Assembly (NCBI GenBank): GCA_013214025.1
Contig: JABSRN010000008.1
Coordinates: 62,001-126,000, forward strand
Direction of reading: 5' to 3'
Source: Polyangiaceae bacterium
Lineage (GTDB): Bacteria > Myxococcota_A > Polyangia > Polyangiales > Polyangiaceae
DNA length: 64,000 nt
The notes under the pieces were generated by a model, which saw nothing but the letters and a program-made list of their open reading frames with translations, did no database searches and was not told the origin of the DNA. Below, piece after piece: positions 2,720 to 14,155 of the stretch (the stretch's first letter is position 1; every line of letters starts with the position of its first letter). A program made the position numbers and the translations under genes.

Positions 2720-5479
2720 ATGCATCACGGACCGGAGTTTGCGGTCGTCTTTATCTCCATCGTGGCACTGCTGATTGGGGCTGTCATGAGGATCGTCTCC
2801 AGCAAGACGGGGTTTCCCTACACCATCGGCATGATGGTCGTGGGCATCGTCGTGGGCATGTTATTCGGGGATTCGGGCGTCGTTCACGGTCACGAGCATG
2901 AAGGCGGCTTGGCGTCTGTCCTGATGTTGGGCGCGGCGATCGACCCGCACCTCATCATATTCGTGTTCCTCCCCGCGCTGGTGTTCGAGAGCGCTTACGC
3001 GATCGATGTGTCCGAGTTTCGCAAGTCGCTTGGCGCCATCGTCGTGTTTGCCGTTCCCGCACTCGTGCTCAGTACATTGATGGTCGCCGGCGTGATGGTA
3101 TCGGTAACTTCCAGCTCTTGGGCTTGGAGCTGGCCGGCGGCGTTAGTGTTCGGCGCGCTGATTAGCGCAACGGACCCTGTCGCGGTCGTTGCGATCCTTC
3201 GAGAGCTAGGGGTGTCCAAACGTCTGGGGACGTTGATTGAAGGCGAGAGTCTGCTCAATGACGGCACCGCCATCGTGGTCTTCACTCTACTGATGGCGCT
3301 GCTCTCCGGCGAGGTGAGCGAGTTCTCGATCAGTCACGCATTGTTCGAGTTTATCAAAGTGGTGAGTGGCGGGATCGCCGTCGGTGCGGTGCTTGCCTTC
3401 GTGTTTTCAAAATGGATCGGCAAGCTTTTCAACGACCCCATGGCGGAGATCAGCATCACCTTGATCCTCGCCTATTCAGCGATGATCATCGCCGAAGGTC
3501 TCTTGCACGTGTCCGGCGTCATGGCCGTGGTGGTCGCAGGGCTGTGGATGAGTGGGCAAGGCAAGACGAAGATCAGCCCTGAGGTGCAGCACTTCCTCCA
3601 CCGTTTCTGGGAGATGCTGGGATACATCGCGAACACCCTGATCTTCTTCTTGGTGGGCCTTGTCATTGCGGTGCAAGCCGCTCACGCAGCTCCCATGGAC
3701 TTCGTCATGATCGGCGTGACCTATGTCGGCGCCATGCTGGTTCGCGCGGTGTTGACCTATGGTTTTCAGCCCATCGCGAATCGTGTCAGCGAGGGCGTGT
3801 CGTCGGGCGATTCTGCTGTCATTACGTGGGGAGGCTTGCGCGGGGCCGTCTCTTTGGCGTTGGCTCTGATTGTCGCTCAAAACGAGAACATTGATCCGGA
3901 GTTGCGTCGTCAGATCTTGTTGGTGACCGCGGGGGTCGTGATGCTAACGATCCTAGTGAACGGATCGACCATTGGCCGATTGCTGTCGAAATTGGGATAC
4001 GACGAGCCGCCAATGGGCGAGCGCTTGCGCCTATTGGCGGCGCGCTCCCGCGCATTGGCTGGGGTACGCCACGAGGTGGAAGAGGTGAGCCGCGATTTAC
4101 GCACGGTCAGTTGGGGCGAGGTGTTTGGCAGGTTGGACGAACGCCAGAACGCGCTGAACTCTGAATTGAACGAAGCCAAACAAGCACTGGAAAAAGCCCC
4201 GGAGGCTACGCGCGTGGCTGCGTACTGGTCACGCGCGTTGGATGTCGAGCGGCAGGCCTATTGGTCCGCCTACGATCACGGGACTTTGGCGGCGGGAGCC
4301 GTCAAGCGATTGAGTCGCGAGATCGAGCGCCAGGCGGACAACTTCGCACGAGGGCATCTCGACGCGCCGCCATCTCGACTGCCGGAGAATATTTCCGTTG
4401 GCCTGTTCGGAGGGCTTTTCGGAGGCACTGGTGATGCATTTGAACAGAGCGCGTTGACTTACGATCTGTCGCGCGCCGAAGCTCAGGCGGCGGACCAGGT
4501 ACTGCACGCACTGGATGCGATGACCGACGTCCCCGAAGAAATATTGGCGCCCATCAAGGAGACCTATCTCGGATACCGACGCGCCGGCAAAGAGCGTATC
4601 GAAGACATGCGTGTGAATTTGCCGGAGATGGCATCCGCCATCGAGGAACGTCTCGCCCGGCGCATAGAACTCAACTTTGAGCGAGAGCAATACGAGTCCC
4701 TGGGGCACCACGGGGCCATTGACCACGACACGATGGAAGAGCAGCTTCGCGATGTAGATGTTCAAATGCATCAGCTCGCCCAGCTCACCACCTCCGTTCC
4801 CATTCCGGAAACGGCCGTTCTTGTGGCGACTACACCGATGTTCGCGAGCCTCGACGCCGGGGCTCGCGAGCTGCTCGCTGATATCACCGAAGAGATGGTG
4901 CTGCGCCCCGGGGACTACCTGTTCCACCAAGACGATCCCGGTTCGAGTTTGTTCGTGATTGCCCGAGGCGCAGTGAACGTGCTGCTGGGCAAAGGCGAGA
5001 TGGTTGTCGACACACTCGGCGGTGGTGACATCATCGGGGAGATTTCGCTCCTGACGGGGGCCCCCCGCACGGCGTCGGTTCGAGCGGCGACGAGCGTGAC
5101 CCTAGGCAAGATCGAGCGGGAAAGCTTTTCGGCGCTGCTGGCCAAAAGCGAACATTTTGAAGGCGAGGTCTGGATGGCCTTCGCTCGGCGGAGTTTTGAT
5201 AATTACTTACGTCGTGCCGGCCGCTTCGGTCACTTGAGCGGCGCCCAGCGCTCCCAATGGGTCGACTCCGGAACGATGAACTGCCTTGAGGCGGGAGAGC
5301 TGACCGGCCCCGAAAGTTCCAGGTATGTATTGGTGGTTACCGGCGAGATGGTCGTTGACGGAGTCGTGCACGGGGCCGTGGCCCTGGCGGAACTAGGCTC
5401 GGACCGAAGAATTAGCTGTACTGGGGAGGGCCGCGCCGTCTTCCTGGGGGAGCCGCCGGAGCGTAGTGATTCCCCCTGA
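2720..5479 (+). CDS. CPA1-family Na+/H+ antiporter with C-terminal cyclic-nucleotide-binding domain (SOS1-like architecture)
   Basis: A 919-residue membrane protein. Residues 1 to about 430 are a hydrophobic antiporter domain with around twelve membrane segments; the ion-binding ND motif is in ATDPVAVVAILRELG (about 150) and GESLLNDGTAIVVF (about 175), which closely recall plant SOS1/NHX7 and NHE proteins. A charged, helical cytoplasmic linker spans about 430-690. A CAP-type nucleotide-binding domain follows at about 700-830, including GEISLLTGAPRTASV near 773, which keeps the Gly-Glu and Arg that contact cAMP or cGMP in this family. About 90 further residues have no match I recognise. The ATG has a good ribosome-binding site (GAGAGGG, 2707-2713). 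Inferred role: sodium or pH homeostasis at the inner membrane, gated by a cyclic nucleotide. The gene appears monocistronic. Confidence 0.9.
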   Translation: MHHGPEFAVVFISIVALLIGAVMRIVSSKTGFPYTIGMMVVGIVVGMLFGDSGVVHGHEHEGGLASVLMLGAAIDPHLIIFVFLPALVFESAYAIDVSEFRKSLGAIVVFAVPALVLSTLMVAGVMVSVTSSSWAWSWPAALVFGALISATDPVAVVAILRELGVSKRLGTLIEGESLLNDGTAIVVFTLLMALLSGEVSEFSISHALFEFIKVVSGGIAVGAVLAFVFSKWIGKLFNDPMAEISITLILAYSAMIIAEGLLHVSGVMAVVVAGLWMSGQGKTKISPEVQHFLHRFWEMLGYIANTLIFFLVGLVIAVQAAHAAPMDFVMIGVTYVGAMLVRAVLTYGFQPIANRVSEGVSSGDSAVITWGGLRGAVSLALALIVAQNENIDPELRRQILLVTAGVVMLTILVNGSTIGRLLSKLGYDEPPMGERLRLLAARSRALAGVRHEVEEVSRDLRTVSWGEVFGRLDERQNALNSELNEAKQALEKAPEATRVAAYWSRALDVERQAYWSAYDHGTLAAGAVKRLSREIERQADNFARGHLDAPPSRLPENISVGLFGGLFGGTGDAFEQSALTYDLSRAEAQAADQVLHALDAMTDVPEEILAPIKETYLGYRRAGKERIEDMRVNLPEMASAIEERLARRIELNFEREQYESLGHHGAIDHDTMEEQLRDVDVQMHQLAQLTTSVPIPETAVLVATTPMFASLDAGARELLADITEEMVLRPGDYLFHQDDPGSSLFVIARGAVNVLLGKGEMVVDTLGGGDIIGEISLLTGAPRTASVRAATSVTLGKIERESFSALLAKSEHFEGEVWMAFARRSFDNYLRRAGRFGHLSGAQRSQWVDSGTMNCLEAGELTGPESSRYVLVVTGEMVVDGVVHGAVALAELGSDRRISCTGEGRAVFLGEPPERSDSP

Positions 5480-7233: not shown

Positions 7234-7593
7234 ATGGTCGACAGCTATCTCCCGATGTTTCTCACGTTCGCGATCTCACTGATCGCGTGCACGGTCATGT
7301 TCACCTTCGGACATTTCCTGGGTCCCAAAAATCCGAGTCCGGCGAAGAACATGCCGTTCGAATGCGGTAACGACACCGAGGGCGCGAAGTTCACGCGCAT
7401 GAACGTGAAGTTCTACCTGACCGCCATTCTGTTCGTTGTGTTCGATATCGAAGTTGTCTTCATCTACCCCTGGGCCGTGTTGTTCAAGGGGTTGGGTTGG
7501 GTCGGCTTCGCAACGATGTTGATGTTCATCGTCTCCTTGCTGGTTGCACTAGTTTACACCTGGAAAAAAGGCGGCCTCGAATGGGAGAGCTGA
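7234..7593 (+). CDS. nuoA: NADH-quinone oxidoreductase subunit A
   Basis: A 119-residue membrane subunit of respiratory complex I with three hydrophobic segments. The family signatures are clear: FECG at 42-45, KFYLTAILFVVFDIEVVFIYPW at about 59-80 (with the conserved acidic residues in the second helix) and the C-terminal KGGLEW. It begins the nuo operon and overlaps nuoB by 13 bases. NuoA helps form the quinone-site loop region together with NuoH and NuoJ in known complexes; in this genome region NuoH itself is strongly modified. Only a weak AGAAG precedes the ATG. Confidence 0.96.
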   Translation: MVDSYLPMFLTFAISLIACTVMFTFGHFLGPKNPSPAKNMPFECGNDTEGAKFTRMNVKFYLTAILFVVFDIEVVFIYPWAVLFKGLGWVGFATMLMFIVSLLVALVYTWKKGGLEWES

Positions 7594-8168
7594 AAACGAA
7601 AACAGAGGTTATTGGCGAGGGAGATGGTGCGTCCATCATCACGACCAAGGCTGAAGACCTGCTGCACTGGGCACAGAAGTACTCTCTCTTCATGTGCCCA
7701 TTCATCACCGCCTGTTGCGGGATGGAGTTCATGGGGGTCACCAGCCCTCGTTATGATCTGGCGCGTTTCGGCGCAGAAGCTCCACGCTTCTCCCCCCGTC
7801 AGTCCGATTTGCTCTGGGTAGTGGGAACTATCACCCAGCGACAGGCGCCCATTCTCAAGCGCATCTACGACCAGATGGCAGAGCCCAAATGGGTCATGGC
7901 CTTCGGTACCTGTGCTAGCTGCGGCGGTTTCTACGACAACTACGCGACGGTGGCAGGGCTCGACAAGATCATCCCCTGTGATATCTACATTCCTGGTTGT
8001 CCGCCACGTCCCGAGTCCGTCTTCGATGGCCTCATGTTGCTGCAAGACAAGATCGCCGACGGCGACCGCTCTCCCTCGATCATCAAACCACGCAGCGACA
8101 ACGCGGAGGGGCCCGACCACGGTCTCGTCCAGCTCAGTCGCCGTGACTCACGACCCTCGGTCAGCTGA
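7581..8168 (+). CDS. nuoB: NADH-quinone oxidoreductase subunit B
   Basis: A 195-residue peripheral subunit that carries the terminal iron-sulfur cluster N2. The four ligands are visible: the paired cysteines in ITACCGMEFM, one in CASCGG and one in IPGCPPRPE. I placed the start at the ATG at 7581, within the last codons of nuoA (13-base overlap), because it gives the family's usual N-terminus; an upstream in-frame ATG at 7497 lies deep inside nuoA and adds unrelated residues. The C-terminal 25 residues or so (after IADGD) are a charged tail. NuoB passes electrons to quinone at the interface with NuoD and NuoH. Confidence 0.96.
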   Translation: MGELKTKTEVIGEGDGASIITTKAEDLLHWAQKYSLFMCPFITACCGMEFMGVTSPRYDLARFGAEAPRFSPRQSDLLWVVGTITQRQAPILKRIYDQMAEPKWVMAFGTCASCGGFYDNYATVAGLDKIIPCDIYIPGCPPRPESVFDGLMLLQDKIADGDRSPSIIKPRSDNAEGPDHGLVQLSRRDSRPSVS

Positions 8169-8212
8169 GCCATCGCCTCTTTTTTTAACGATTCGTAAAA
8201 GCAAATATCGAT

Positions 8213-8818
8213 ATGTCGAAAGCTTTGGTGGAGCTCATCCGGAACAAATTTCCGGACGCTTTTGTTGAAACGCACTCCCAGGTCGGCGACGACACGGTGG
8301 TCGTAAAATCTGAGGCGTGGCACGACGTGTGCGCCTTCCTGAAATCTTCGCCGGACTCGGATATCGATATGTTGATCGATCTCACGGCAGTCGACTTCCC
8401 GGAGCGGGAGCCTCGCTTCGAGGTAGTCGCTCATATGTACAGTTTGGACCTGGGTCACCGCCTGCGTTTGAAGACGCGAGTAGGGGACGCCAAGGGCGAG
8501 AACACCGACGTCGCGACGCTTTCGGACTTGTGGGGCAGCGCGAACTGGATGGAGCGCGAAGCTTGGGACATGTTCGGCATCGTCTTCGACGGCCACCCGG
8601 ACCTTCGACGCATCTTGATGTACCCGGAGTTTAAGGGACACCCGCTGCGCCGTGACTACCCGGCAGACAAAATCCAGCCGCTAGTCGAGTACCGCAAGGT
8701 CGACAATATCGACAAGCTACCCCCCTTTGACGCCAACGAAGGCATGAGCTTCGGCCGTCAAACTCACGACAAAACCGAAGAAGAGTCGGCAGACGCCGAG
8801 CTCTTCGGTGACAACTAA
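8213..8818 (+). CDS. nuoC: NADH-quinone oxidoreductase subunit C
   Basis: A 201-residue homologue of the 30-kDa complex I subunit. The diagnostic block WMEREAWDMFGIVFDGHP followed by DLRRILMYPEFKGHPLRRDYP occupies about 111-149. NuoC is separate from NuoD here, unlike the fused NuoCD of enterobacteria. It lies 44 bases after nuoB; this gap contains a run of seven Ts (8180-8186) but no stem before it, so I do not call a terminator. No Shine-Dalgarno sequence is evident before the ATG; the leader is A-rich instead. Confidence 0.95.
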   Translation: MSKALVELIRNKFPDAFVETHSQVGDDTVVVKSEAWHDVCAFLKSSPDSDIDMLIDLTAVDFPEREPRFEVVAHMYSLDLGHRLRLKTRVGDAKGENTDVATLSDLWGSANWMEREAWDMFGIVFDGHPDLRRILMYPEFKGHPLRRDYPADKIQPLVEYRKVDNIDKLPPFDANEGMSFGRQTHDKTEEESADAELFGDN

Positions 8819-8838
8819 GCCAAGGCTGAGGACGAACG

Positions 8839-10053
8839 ATGGAGCCCCTAGACGCAAGCCTGGACGAATCTGAAATCGAGATGCCCGCTGAGCCGATGTT
8901 GCTCAACGTGGGCCCCGCTCACCCCTGCATGCACGGCACCGTCCGATGCGTAATGGAACTGAGCGGAGAGACCATCGAGAAGGTCGACGTGCAGGTCGGA
9001 TACTTGCACCGCGGTTTCGAAAAAATGTGCGAGCGCGGCACCTGGTCCCAGGTGTTCCCCTACGTGGACCGCGCCAACTATGTCTCTCCGATGTTGAACA
9101 ACGTCGGTTTCGCCCTCGCTTGCGAGAAGCTGTTGGGCATCGAGGTGCCGGCCCGCTGTGCTTACTACCGTGTGGCCTTGGGCGAGCTGGCCCGCATCGC
9201 GGACATTCTGACCTGCGATGGCGCCATGGCGATGGAGCTCGGAGCCTTCACCCCCTTTCTGTGGATGATCAAAGGCCGTGAGATGATCTGGGACCTCTTC
9301 GAAGAGGAAACCGGCGCTCGCATGACCCATAGTTTTGGTCGCATTGGCGGGATGGCCCACGCGCCGACAGAGGGTTTCAAAGAGACTGCGACCGCCACCG
9401 TCGATCAGGTGTGCAGCATCGTAGAAGAAGTCGAACGGCTGCTTCTTGGTAACCGCATCTTCTTGGACCGGCTTCAGGACGTGGGTCGCGTCAGCAAAGA
9501 GGACGCGATTTCTCTCGGCTGGACGGGTCCTTGCCTGCGGGCGAGCGGCGTTCCCTACGACGTGCGCAAAGCTCACCCCTACTCCCGCTACGAGGAGTTC
9601 GAGTTTGAGATCCCCGTCGGCACCAATGGCGATTGTTACGATCGTTTCATGGTGCGGCTCGAAGAGCTCCGTCAAAGCGCGAGCATCGTTCGCCAAGCTC
9701 TAGAGAAAATGCCCGACGACGGCCCGGTGAACGTGAACGACCCCCGAGTCGTGCTGCCGCCCAAAGAAGAGGTGTACAACACCATCGAAGGCACCATCCG
9801 GCACTTTAAGATCATCATGGAGGGCCTCAAGCTCCCCGCTGGTGAAGTCTACGGATACACCGAGGCCGGCAACGGCGAGCTGGGTTTTTACCTGGTGAGC
9901 GACGGCAGCGGAACACCCTACCGGGTGCGGATCCGTCCCCCTTGCTTCTTGGTAACCGCTGGTCTCGAACGAGTGATTACCGGTGAGATGATATCTGATG
10001 TGGTGCCGTGTTTCGGCTCCCTGAACATGATCGGTGGCGAGTGCGACCGCTAG
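8839..10053 (+). CDS. nuoD: NADH-quinone oxidoreductase subunit D
   Basis: A 404-residue homologue of the 49-kDa subunit, which forms most of the quinone pocket with NuoB. Recognisable blocks include GPAHPCMHGTVR near residue 28 (most family members have HPSTHG here, so Ser-Thr is replaced by Cys-Met), GYLHRGFEK, DRANYVSPM, RIADILTCDGAMAMELGAFTP, GGMAHAP and the C-terminal GSLNMIGGECDR (usually GEVDR). The catalytic His of HGTVR is kept. The ATG follows GAGGAC by five bases. The deviations at the quinone-site loop are worth noting together with the altered NuoH. Confidence 0.95.
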   Translation: MEPLDASLDESEIEMPAEPMLLNVGPAHPCMHGTVRCVMELSGETIEKVDVQVGYLHRGFEKMCERGTWSQVFPYVDRANYVSPMLNNVGFALACEKLLGIEVPARCAYYRVALGELARIADILTCDGAMAMELGAFTPFLWMIKGREMIWDLFEEETGARMTHSFGRIGGMAHAPTEGFKETATATVDQVCSIVEEVERLLLGNRIFLDRLQDVGRVSKEDAISLGWTGPCLRASGVPYDVRKAHPYSRYEEFEFEIPVGTNGDCYDRFMVRLEELRQSASIVRQALEKMPDDGPVNVNDPRVVLPPKEEVYNTIEGTIRHFKIIMEGLKLPAGEVYGYTEAGNGELGFYLVSDGSGTPYRVRIRPPCFLVTAGLERVITGEMISDVVPCFGSLNMIGGECDR

Positions 10054-10084
10054 GGTCGGCACTTCATTTAGGAACTTAATTCAG

Positions 10085-11686
10085 ATGCCTAGCTTCAAAC
10101 TGGACGGTCGAGACGTCGAATTTTCACCCGGTGAAACTGTCATTGAGGCAGCTCGCAAAGCGGGCGTGGATATCCCTCATTACTGTTGGCACCCGGGGCT
10201 CAGCGTCGCGGCCAACTGTCGCATGTGTTTGGTCGAGGTGGGCCCGCCCCCCGGTCGCCCGGCACTGATGCTCAACGTGCTTGAGTACGACGCCGAAAAG
10301 GGCGAGTACATCGATGCCAAAAAGCCGAAGCTTCAGCCGTCCTGCCAACTCGGCGCCGTCGAGGGCATGGAGGTCAAGAGCGAGAGCAGCGAACACGTCA
10401 AGCGCGCCAGGGCCGCCGTGCAAGAGATGTTGCTGCTCAACCACCCCGTGGATTGTCCGATCTGCGACCAAGCTGGCGAGTGCCGTTTGCAGGACTACTG
10501 GTTGGAGCACCAGAGCACCGACAAGCGCATGAAGGACGAGACAATCCGTAAGCCCAAGGCGCAGGATTTTGGTCCCACCATTGTTTACGACGCAGAGCGC
10601 TGCATTGTTTGCACCCGCTGTATTCGATTCTCCGAAGAGATCGCGAAGGATCCCGTTCTCGACCTACGAGACCGGGGCAACCTGGCCGAAGTGGTGGTCG
10701 CACCGGGACGCGAGCTCGATCACGACTACACACTGATGACCGAGCACGTGTGCCCGGTCGGCGCGCTCACAGCCAAGGACTTCCGCTTCAAGGCGCGGGT
10801 CTGGTTCTTGAGAAGCTCTCAGAGCATTTGCCAAGGTTGTTCAACGGGCTGCAACGCCTTCCTCGACTACGATCCCCGGGATCAGACGGTTTATCGCCAT
10901 CGCCCCCGAGAGAACGCCGAGGTCAACAAGTTCTGGATGTGTGACAAGGGCATGCTCGACTACCGCCGTATCCACGAGAATCGTCTGCTCGAGCCAACCA
11001 TCAGTGGCAAGAGCGCCGACGTGGGCGCGGCTCTAGAAAAAGCCGTCGAGCTGCTTAAGGACGTGGACTCCGACAAGTTGGCAGTGGTGCTGAGCGCCCA
11101 GCATTCCAACGAGGACAACTTCGCATTGCTCACTTTGGCCCAAGAGCACCTCGGCTCGAAAGCGTTGTTTCTCGCGGCGCGCCCCTCGGGACCTGCTGAC
11201 GACATCTTGATAAACGCCGACAAGAACCCGAATACGGCGGGTGCCACGGCAGTGTGTGGTTCGACCCCACCGAAGTCTTTCAGCGAGCTGCTGACGGCGA
11301 TTGGTTCCGGTAAAATCAGTCACGTATTGGCGCTCTCCGCCGACGTAGAAGAGGACCTCTCGCCGCTATCGGATCTCAAGGCACTGGTTGTGCTTTCGAC
11401 CCACGATGTTGGTCTGGCTAAAGCCGCCACAGTGGCCCTCCCAGCAAGTAGCTGGGCCGAATGCGACGGTACCTTCGTTAACGAAAAGGGCGCATCCCAA
11501 GCCAGCGAGTCGGCGATCAAACCTCAGGGCGCCTCACGCCCGGCTTGGAAGCTAGCTGGCGCCATCGGAATGCGCCTCGGCAAATCCACTCCTTGGAAGA
11601 GTCTCGATGACTTCCGCGGAGCGGTGAACTCGGACGCGGCAGCAGCTGGCGTCGATGTCGGCGTCCAGCCGGGAGCCTCAGCATGA
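10085..11686 (+). CDS. nuoG: NADH-quinone oxidoreductase subunit G (short form)
   Basis: A 533-residue iron-sulfur subunit, much shorter than the roughly 900 residues of E. coli NuoG. The N-terminal 2Fe-2S ligands are C34, C45, C48 and, after an insertion, C87. Next come the His-Cys3 4Fe-4S site (HPVDCPICDQAGEC), a further 4Fe-4S site (CIVCTRC with the later CPVGA) and, in the molybdopterin-like domain, a C-x2-C-x3-C-x29-C tetrad (from CQGCSTGC to WMCDKG) that resembles cluster N7. The rest of the molybdopterin-oxidoreductase domain is reduced. The start is the ATG at 10085 after GGAA (10071-10074). nuoE and nuoF, which usually sit just before nuoG, are missing here. It overlaps nuoH by four bases (ATGA). 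Confidence 0.94.
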   Translation: MPSFKLDGRDVEFSPGETVIEAARKAGVDIPHYCWHPGLSVAANCRMCLVEVGPPPGRPALMLNVLEYDAEKGEYIDAKKPKLQPSCQLGAVEGMEVKSESSEHVKRARAAVQEMLLLNHPVDCPICDQAGECRLQDYWLEHQSTDKRMKDETIRKPKAQDFGPTIVYDAERCIVCTRCIRFSEEIAKDPVLDLRDRGNLAEVVVAPGRELDHDYTLMTEHVCPVGALTAKDFRFKARVWFLRSSQSICQGCSTGCNAFLDYDPRDQTVYRHRPRENAEVNKFWMCDKGMLDYRRIHENRLLEPTISGKSADVGAALEKAVELLKDVDSDKLAVVLSAQHSNEDNFALLTLAQEHLGSKALFLAARPSGPADDILINADKNPNTAGATAVCGSTPPKSFSELLTAIGSGKISHVLALSADVEEDLSPLSDLKALVVLSTHDVGLAKAATVALPASSWAECDGTFVNEKGASQASESAIKPQGASRPAWKLAGAIGMRLGKSTPWKSLDDFRGAVNSDAAAAGVDVGVQPGASA

Positions 11687-13494
11687 ACGAGATTGAATTG
11701 CGCGAGTGGCTCGAGACCTGGGCCTGGACCCTCTTGCCCTACCTACTCATGTTGGGCAAATCTATATTCGCCGGCGCCGGCTTCTCCATGAACCTGGCGG
11801 TGTTGCTCACTTGGACAGACCGTCGTTACGGATCCATGCTTCAAGATCGCATCGGTCCGGACCGCGCGGTTGTGTACATGCCCAAGATGGTGGCTAGAGG
11901 CGGCGCCTTCGTTCCGGCTCTGCTGACCGGCGGAGCCGTGGTCGCCTACGCCAAGTTCGGCGTCGACAATATCAGCGCAGCCCAAGCGTTTTTCATGAGC
12001 CAACTCGCCATCTTCATGGCTTGGTTCACCCTGATGATCATCACGGACGCCGTACACAATCGCGGCGTGCGTAATCCCTTCGACCAGTTCCTGGCCGCCG
12101 TCCGAAACCCCCGAGACATGGTCTACGGTGGTTTTGCCGCGCATGTCTTTGCTCTCCTAGTGCTCGTCGGTGCCGGAACCGGCCCAGGTCACGTTCGCGA
12201 GTTTCTGTTCTTCGGCGGTACGGGAGTTCTGTTCGTGAGCATCATCGGTGGTGCCGGCTACGCAGCTGCGCAGATGGTCGAGGACCAAATCGGTCTGCGT
12301 CTGCTGGGCCTGCTGCACCCCGCGGCGGACGGTCTCAAGAGCATCTTCAAAGAAGACTTCGTCCCCGAGGACGCGGACAAGCTACTTCACGGCCTGGCCC
12401 CGTTCATTGCCTTCTTCCCGACCCTGGTGGTTCTGGCCATCGTCCCCTTCGGTGACACGCTGTGTTTCGAAGCCCGGGAAAATGGCGCGGTCGACATCTT
12501 TAAGCTGTTGCCCATCGTGCCTCGCGACGGTGTTTGCACCGATGCAGCCATCCAACTCCAGGTGGTCGATCTCAACATCGGCGTTCTCTACTTCTTCGCG
12601 CTGGCTGGCACCGGCATCGTGGGAGCCGCGCTCGCCGGTTGGGCGAGTAACAACAAGTACAGTCTGATGGGCGGCCTGCGCGCTGCCGGTCAGATGGTCT
12701 CCTACGAGGTGACCCTAGGTCTGACTCTCGTCGGCGCCATCATGATTTACGGCACTGTTCAGGTCGACGACATGGTTCGCTGGCAGGTCGAGAACACCTG
12801 GGGCGTCTTCGTTCAGCCCTTGGCGTTCGTCCTCTTTTTCGCCGCTGCCGTCGCCGAATCCAAGCGTATCCCCTTCGACATTCCCGAAGGCGAGAGCGAG
12901 CTCGTGGCGGGTTATTTCCTCGAGTACTCCGGGATGAAGTTCTCGATGTTTTTCCTCGGGGAGTACATCGCGGTCGTTACCTCGAGCGCTCTGATGGTCG
13001 CCATCTTCTTCGGCGGCTGGCACATCCCCTTCCTGTACCGGGACGGCATCACGATGTCTTTCGGCGACAGCATGATCTTCCACTACGGCATGAGCCACGG
13101 GCTGGTGGTTCTCATCGGCTTCCTCGCCTTTATCGTCAAGAGCATCGGTCTTTGCATGCTGCAGCTGACCATCCGTTGGACGCTGCCGCGTTTCCGTTAC
13201 GACCAGCTCATGAAGCTCGGTTGGCGCATGCTCTTGCCGCTGTCCCTCGCCAACATTCTCGCCACCGGCGTGGTGGTCCTCGCTCTCGATAGCGCGGGTA
13301 CCTCGGTCAACAGCGCGTTGACACTACTCTGCGACTTCACCGAGCTCTTCCTCGTTGGCGGAGCGGCGGTCATCTTCGTGCTGGTTGTGCGATTCCTTCT
13401 CCAGCCCGCTGAGCATCGCCGGGTCGTGGCCAGCACCTCTGCCAAGTACGCCGAGGCCGCAGGCGGAACCCTCACCGCCAAGATGGGAGCCTAG
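11683..13494 (+). CDS. nuoH: NADH-quinone oxidoreductase subunit H with large membrane insertion
   Basis: A 603-residue protein where family members are commonly 320-430. The membrane subunit forms the quinone tunnel. The canonical early motif is split: its first half, a D-R-R-x9-R-I-G-P-D-R-A stretch, is at 46-62, while its second half, GLLHPAADGLKSIFKEDF, only appears at 209-226. The roughly 145 residues between contain four hydrophobic stretches (about 76-92, 103-121, 147-164, 174-197). After that the protein is normal: LNIGVLYFFALAGTG, GWASNNKYSLMGGLRAAGQM, ESKRIPFDIPEGESELVAGY. A loop at about 260-290 has two cysteines and is also longer than usual. There is no frameshift or stop, and flanking gene overlaps are tight, so the insertion looks genuine. 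The ATG overlaps nuoG. Confidence 0.92.
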   Translation: MNEIELREWLETWAWTLLPYLLMLGKSIFAGAGFSMNLAVLLTWTDRRYGSMLQDRIGPDRAVVYMPKMVARGGAFVPALLTGGAVVAYAKFGVDNISAAQAFFMSQLAIFMAWFTLMIITDAVHNRGVRNPFDQFLAAVRNPRDMVYGGFAAHVFALLVLVGAGTGPGHVREFLFFGGTGVLFVSIIGGAGYAAAQMVEDQIGLRLLGLLHPAADGLKSIFKEDFVPEDADKLLHGLAPFIAFFPTLVVLAIVPFGDTLCFEARENGAVDIFKLLPIVPRDGVCTDAAIQLQVVDLNIGVLYFFALAGTGIVGAALAGWASNNKYSLMGGLRAAGQMVSYEVTLGLTLVGAIMIYGTVQVDDMVRWQVENTWGVFVQPLAFVLFFAAAVAESKRIPFDIPEGESELVAGYFLEYSGMKFSMFFLGEYIAVVTSSALMVAIFFGGWHIPFLYRDGITMSFGDSMIFHYGMSHGLVVLIGFLAFIVKSIGLCMLQLTIRWTLPRFRYDQLMKLGWRMLLPLSLANILATGVVVLALDSAGTSVNSALTLLCDFTELFLVGGAAVIFVLVVRFLLQPAEHRRVVASTSAKYAEAAGGTLTAKMGA

Positions 13495-13498
13495 AATT

Positions 13499-14155
13499 AT
13501 GCAAACCGAACCGCTCGGACCGAACAAAGTCGTCGGCAAAGTCATCGCTCGCGGCGAACGCAAGGCGTCCGTCCAGACCTACGTACCTGAAATTGCGAAG
13601 GGTCTGGCCATCACCGTCGGTCACTTCTTCAAGAACACCAAAGAGATGGTGTTGGGTCAGCGCAACGACCCGACTTTGGAAGCGATCAGCGATGGCATCA
13701 ACACCATCAGCTATCCCGAGCAGCGCCGGCCCTACCCGGACCGATTCCGTGGGCAGCACCGCTTGATGCACCGCGAAGACGGTTCTTCCCGTTGTGTGGC
13801 GTGTCTCTGCTGTTCCACGGCTTGTCCAGCGCAGTGCATCCATATCGAAGCGGGGGAGTACCCCGAAGGTGACGAACGACGCGGGTACGAGCGTTTCCCC
13901 ACGCGCTTCGTCATCGACGAGTTGCGCTGTGTTTTCTGCGGATTCTGCGTCGAAGCCTGTCCCTGCGATGCGATTCGTATGGATACCGGATTGCATCCCA
14001 CCCCTTACGATTCCCGTGAGCAGTTCATCTACGAGAAGGACTTGCTCATGAGCTTCAAGGGCCGTGACGGATCGCAAGTGACCGACAACCTTCGGGCTGA
14101 GCCCGGCGAAGACGCGCATCCCGGCATCGCTCGGGACAAGGTCGGTCGTCACTGA
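13499..14155 (+). CDS. nuoI: NADH-quinone oxidoreductase subunit I
   Basis: A 218-residue two-cluster ferredoxin-like subunit that relays electrons from NuoG to NuoB. The two 4Fe-4S motifs are CVACLCCSTACP (with an extra Cys after the second ligand) and CVFCGFCVEACP. The start is the ATG at 13499, four bases after the nuoH stop; this yields the usual N-terminus, although the frame stays open upstream into nuoH. It is the last nuo gene of this cluster: gatB follows 19 bases later, and nuoJ-N must lie elsewhere if the complex is complete. Confidence 0.95.
   Translation: MQTEPLGPNKVVGKVIARGERKASVQTYVPEIAKGLAITVGHFFKNTKEMVLGQRNDPTLEAISDGINTISYPEQRRPYPDRFRGQHRLMHREDGSSRCVACLCCSTACPAQCIHIEAGEYPEGDERRGYERFPTRFVIDELRCVFCGFCVEACPCDAIRMDTGLHPTPYDSREQFIYEKDLLMSFKGRDGSQVTDNLRAEPGEDAHPGIARDKVGRH

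Follow-up and report, generated by a model that had tools for sequence, protein, structure and literature searches.

The window, the whole stretch of 64,000 nucleotides analysed here, carries on its forward strand an intact nuoH open reading frame of 603 codons (11683..13494). Flanked by nuoG and nuoI, the gene belongs to an operon with the order nuoA-B-C-D-G-H-I, in which nuoA, nuoB, nuoC, nuoD, and nuoG (7234..11686, forward strand) and nuoI with its two 4Fe-4S motifs (13499..14155, forward strand) were recognized by Pfam matches. The genes nuoE, F, J, K, L, M, and N are grouped on a second contig of the same genome. No second NuoH was found in a search of the whole genome, the assembly of which is ~97% complete. 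Since this is the sole nuoH found, the 603-residue protein must serve the complex I of the cell, barring a copy in the missing ~3%. Upstream of the operon, a sodium/proton exchanger of 919 residues with a cyclic-nucleotide-binding domain is encoded at 2720-5479. The NuoL of the genome (L174:8386-10902) has 838 residues and a C-terminal tail (GYQYSWDLDGDGEF...) without a Pfam match, which by eye resembles a PKD-like extracellular domain.

The 603-residue protein matches Pfam PF00146 (NADHdh) with 316.5 bits against a curated cut-off of 27, and the match falls into two pieces broken at an insert. All six NCBIfam equivalog models for NuoH also match, but none reaches its cut-off (best, 276 bits versus 305). 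This shortfall is expected because the insert splits the alignment, and it weakens the automatic label, not the identity as NuoH. In an AlphaFold2 model (35 aligned sequences, pLDDT 81, pTM 0.82), the core agrees with solved NuoH/NdhA structures at Z scores of about 28-31 over 300-340 residues (31.5 to 6khj_A and 28.6 to 4hea_H; about 31 to cyanobacterial NdhA and 30 to E. coli NuoH). The quinone and E-channel motifs RxGPxR, AD..K..KE, and E..R.PFD.PE.E.E are present, in columns that are invariant or nearly so in an alignment of the order. The acidic residues of the Q-loop and proton path, conserved to the same degree across the order, are retained as well. The window protein shares with NuoH/Nqo8/ND1 (PF00146) the whole core, all canonical helices, the Q-loop motifs, and the operon context.

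The original prediction, made from the sequence of this DNA, had described the conserved quinone-tunnel motif as split, and the translation confirms RIGPDRA at residues 56-62 (11848..11868) and HPAADGLK at residues 212-219. The spacing from the Gly of the RxGP motif to the Ala of the AD motif is 157 residues. Among ~70 NuoH proteins from many phyla, 29 have a spacing of 14 and 23 a spacing of 19, nearly all others lie at 15-33, and one value of 224 is discounted as a search-pattern error. The only long-spacing exceptions are Polyangiaceae proteins (161 or more) and one Sandaracinaceae protein (98). Within the order, three spacer states are seen: 23-24 residues, 80-114 residues with two hydrophobic stretches, and a long form of 154-168 residues. 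The normal gap had been put at about 10 residues, which is too short for the sister genera, where the spacing is 23 because a short hairpin occupies this point. Compared with these genera, the window NuoH has 134 extra residues, with four predicted membrane helices, between TM1 and AH1. His212 (12316-12318) takes the place of the usual Gln of QPxAD, as His does in all aligned members of the order, both insert-bearing and insert-free.

In the model, TM1 (residues 3-54; 11689..11844, this and all following features on the forward strand) is one long predicted helix, followed by RIGPDRA, which shows zero divergence within each of the four genera compared. The first strand of a stalk hairpin (residues 64-67; 11872..11883) leads to insert helices A (residues 68-92; 11884..11958) and B (residues 99-127; 11977..12063). 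The positively charged and predicted cytoplasmic B-C loop (residues 128-143; 12064..12111) connects them to helices C (residues 144-164; 12112..12174) and D (residues 169-197; 12187..12273). The second strand of the stalk (residues 202-205; 12286..12297) then reaches the amphipathic helix AH1 (residues 207-222; 12301..12348), which holds HPAADGLK, the motif of the quinone-entry bottleneck. Beyond AH1, the model contains TM2 (residues 233-253), a long periplasmic TM2-TM3 loop with two Cys residues (residues 254-298; 12442..12576), and TM9 (residues 540-573; 13300..13401), an extra C-terminal helix as in Thermus Nqo8. Eight residues are invariant in 20 aligned inserts: P67 at the end of the first strand, P78, W114 in helix B, G128 and P143 in the B-C loop, R144 directly behind it, and G150 and H154 in helix C; Y193 is nearly so.

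The four hydrophobic stretches noticed in the original prediction are modelled as four helices, with pLDDT mostly 86-97 for the insert blocks in the full protein, and the insert folded alone gives the same elements, including the second stalk strand, with a mean pLDDT of 90. The two strands match AVIKIGKFELR of the sister genera, a short hairpin without helices. Alignment and model together place the four helices on the tip of this pre-existing hairpin. Overlapping BLAST ends had hinted at a second copy of the RIGP region at 198-212; the hairpin, with its two strands on either side of the insert, accounts for this. The mean number of Lys and Arg residues in 20 carriers is 1.25 before helix A, 4.6 in the B-C region (residues 123-146), and 3.05 after helix D; it is 1.6 in the A-B loop, where it is balanced by acidic residues, and 0.9 in the C-D loop. 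Since the number of helices is even and the positive loops lie on the cytoplasmic side, both ends of the insert are predicted to be cytoplasmic, leaving the NuoH topology unchanged. In all insert-bearing relatives that allowed a count, the TM2-TM3 loop has two Cys residues (once three). The loop lacks Cys in the two-helix relatives, and some genera of the family without the insert have Cys there as well. The pair may form a disulfide.

When the insert alone was used as a profile, matches were obtained in 67 of the 108 genomes of the family Polyangiaceae. With three partial matches left out, the insert is in frame in 64 genomes of about 30 of the 48 genera, several of them closed chromosomes and one a single contig of 14,782,125 bases. 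The presence of the same insert in 63 further genomes of the family, in independent assemblies and closed chromosomes, excludes chance and an assembly or frameshift artefact; an assembly artefact had already been considered unlikely from the intact frame and overlaps. Full-length matches were confined to Polyangiaceae in an even sample of 379 genomes from across the phylum. The matches outside the family, at E values of about 1e-4, are an unrelated membrane protein (G168) and two two-helix NuoH proteins (G453 and G455). The Corallococcus, Archangium, and Anaeromyxobacter loci have no such insert, and among plasmid records no match covers 80% of the 603-residue protein, hence no insert-bearing copy was found there. 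The comparison with other Myxococcota that had been suggested thus points to a lineage-specific complex I.

In a tree of the NuoH core, built after cutting out the insert, all 20 included carriers fall on one side of a branch, which corresponds to one change, with weak support (65/23). A single origin of the four-helix insert was not rejected on a repeat test, and the two-helix state requires at least four changes on the same tree. On these sequence grounds, the history may be one gain, or an earlier gain with a loss in the sister clade; the tree fits both. L022, a near-basal member of the family with two hydrophobic stretches, is similar to the two ends of the long insert, and owing to this resemblance it may represent an intermediate or a truncated form. 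Composition (insert versus core: GC 0.604 versus 0.605, GC3 0.715 versus 0.822) is not telling as to a foreign origin.

Two-helix inserts are present at the same point of NuoH in several other families of the order (L033, L035, L037, L041, and L057), marking an insertion hotspot. Like the four-helix insert, they follow the RxGP motif and precede AH1; they differ in having two hydrophobic stretches and a spacing of 91-114 residues. No sequence relation between the two kinds of insert was detectable, an absence of similarity that speaks against a copy of the two-helix inserts but leaves room for one. NuoJ was rejected as a source (profile match at E 0.19, profile comparison probability only 3.7%), as was an internal duplication of helices A-B into C-D, which show no similarity. 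A Pfam scan of 20 inserts gave scattered chance matches, with no family in more than two members, and no PDB sequence matched the insert. The best Foldseek hit had an E value of 1.1, and the best fold comparison with VIA (Z 8.7, rmsd 5.9) is within the chance range for helical bundles. Helices in the TM1-AH1 loop of NuoH were not described in the literature searched, outside which most subscription journals lie, and insertions go unmentioned in a recent survey of prokaryotic complex I. The insert is neither a common feature in the ~70-protein survey nor a described one in the searchable literature, and it is apparently new.

Judging from its sequences, the insert is less constrained than the core, yet it is kept. 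Divergence among carriers is 0.58-0.72 for the insert helices and the cytoplasmic loop, compared with 0.62 for TM9, 0.55 for TM1, 0.39 for AH1, and 0.24 for TM3-TM4, and the periplasmic loops are the least conserved parts. Within one genus, the insert helices diverge by 0.23-0.33, whereas AH1 and TM2 show 0.00. The dN/dS of the insert is 0.11-0.25 in two genera and 0.8-1.6 in the large-genome genus g19, where that of the core is 0.18-0.63; mostly it is about two to four times the core value. The dN/dS method is simple, and since the codon bias of high GC depresses dS equally in insert and core, only the comparison between these two parts is used. Acidic residues are nearly absent from the cores of the insert helices (means 0.00-0.35).

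The insert sits in the TM1-AH1 loop, directly ahead of the motif of bottleneck residues (P213, D216, and G217 here, by motif alignment), and would adjoin the entrance of the quinone tunnel, as originally proposed. Published simulations name this loop as a moving part of the quinone-entry bottleneck, and TM1 and part of the TM1-AH1 loop were not seen in E. coli complex I in nanodiscs (PMC8357420). With moderate confidence, we propose that the insert acts as an accessory module built into NuoH, bracing or screening the quinone gate. The intact core and the divergence of the bundle, which resembles that of a lipid-facing part, lead us to favour this explanation. The four-helix membrane module would be mounted on the short β-hairpin between TM1 and AH1, the hinge of the quinone gate, while the core of complex I would function as usual. 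Flanking the quinone portal, the module would probably be embedded in the lipid next to TM1 and AH1. It may brace TM1 and AH1 and damp their movement, or it may screen the lipid-facing entry, by analogy with the separate accessory subunits around ND1 in mitochondria. Counting against both roles, the fast divergence of the insert would also fit a module of little function, and the sister genera do without it.

There are other readings of the bundle. It may serve to seat a partner, for instance an accessory subunit specific to the lineage or, within a supercomplex, another respiratory complex. The conserved positive B-C loop with its invariant Gly and Pro-Arg, and the invariant His in helix C, resemble a binding surface, and a peripheral placement fits, but no partner gene was identified and the periplasmic loops are poorly conserved; docking as the main role seems rather unlikely. 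A site for a lipid or a partner, as suggested in the original prediction, may exist at the insert. We give a comparably low probability to the view that the insertion-tolerant hairpin tip gained membrane helices by chance and kept them as a harmless passenger. The presence of zero, two, or four helices at the same spot in the order, the repeated changes of the two-helix state, and the raised dN/dS, near 1 in one genus, would be expected of a passenger. Against it, the open frame, the length of 154-168, and the eight invariant residues are retained over about 30 genera, and dN/dS is low in two other genera.

It is doubtful that a dedicated gate module in the core subunit regulates or protects quinone entry, for example against the family's own inhibitors of complex I. 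In the narrower and improbable form of this idea, a fast-evolving module at the portal shields the complex I of the producer from respiratory inhibitors such as phenoxan. Phenoxan of Polyangium blocks complex I and icumazol of Sorangium inhibits NADH oxidation (PMC8401837), and the module, which would adjoin the portal, shows fast evolution in the large-genome genus. However, the insert is lacking from the Corallococcus and Archangium loci, which belong to groups known for respiratory inhibitors; its divergence is just modestly above that of TM9, and many carriers are uncultured, with no known inhibitor. The extra ion or proton channel envisaged in the original prediction could draw on the four helices and the one invariant His, but helix cores almost free of acidic residues, a divergence like that of the peripheral TM9, and the lack of a match to any transporter family or fold make it highly improbable.

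A deviation in NuoD had also been pointed out, and HPCMHG is indeed present in its quinone-site loop (8920-8937, gene 8839-10053). It is a single Ala-to-Cys change private to the species, which gives no support to the suggested link with the insert. The 21 other NuoD proteins have HPAMHG (19) or HPATHG (2) whether the NuoH insert is present or absent.

The field has yet to explain how a bulky quinone gets through the closed bottleneck of complex I. In these bacteria, the weight of four predicted helices sits on the hinge thought to open the gate, and the insert-free sister genera, together with relatives having about half of the insert, offer a ready comparison set for gate models. The insert also indicates that an entire membrane module can be accommodated in a core subunit that is regarded as almost invariant. 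According to a review, Nqo8 of Thermus thermophilus supplies a TM9 and an extended TM2-3 loop of its own at places taken in mitochondria by NDUFA13 and NDUFA1 (PMC8762328). The window NuoH likewise has TM9 and a long TM2-TM3 loop; it differs from Nqo8, whose TM1-AH1 loop has no aligned or reported four-helix insert. The mitochondrial subunits NDUFA1, NDUFA3, NDUFA13, and NDUFA9 differ from the insert in being separate proteins, with no sequence or fold relation to it found. They lie next to TM1 and the quinone opening, in the membrane or at the surface, and are proposed to resemble the insert in role only.
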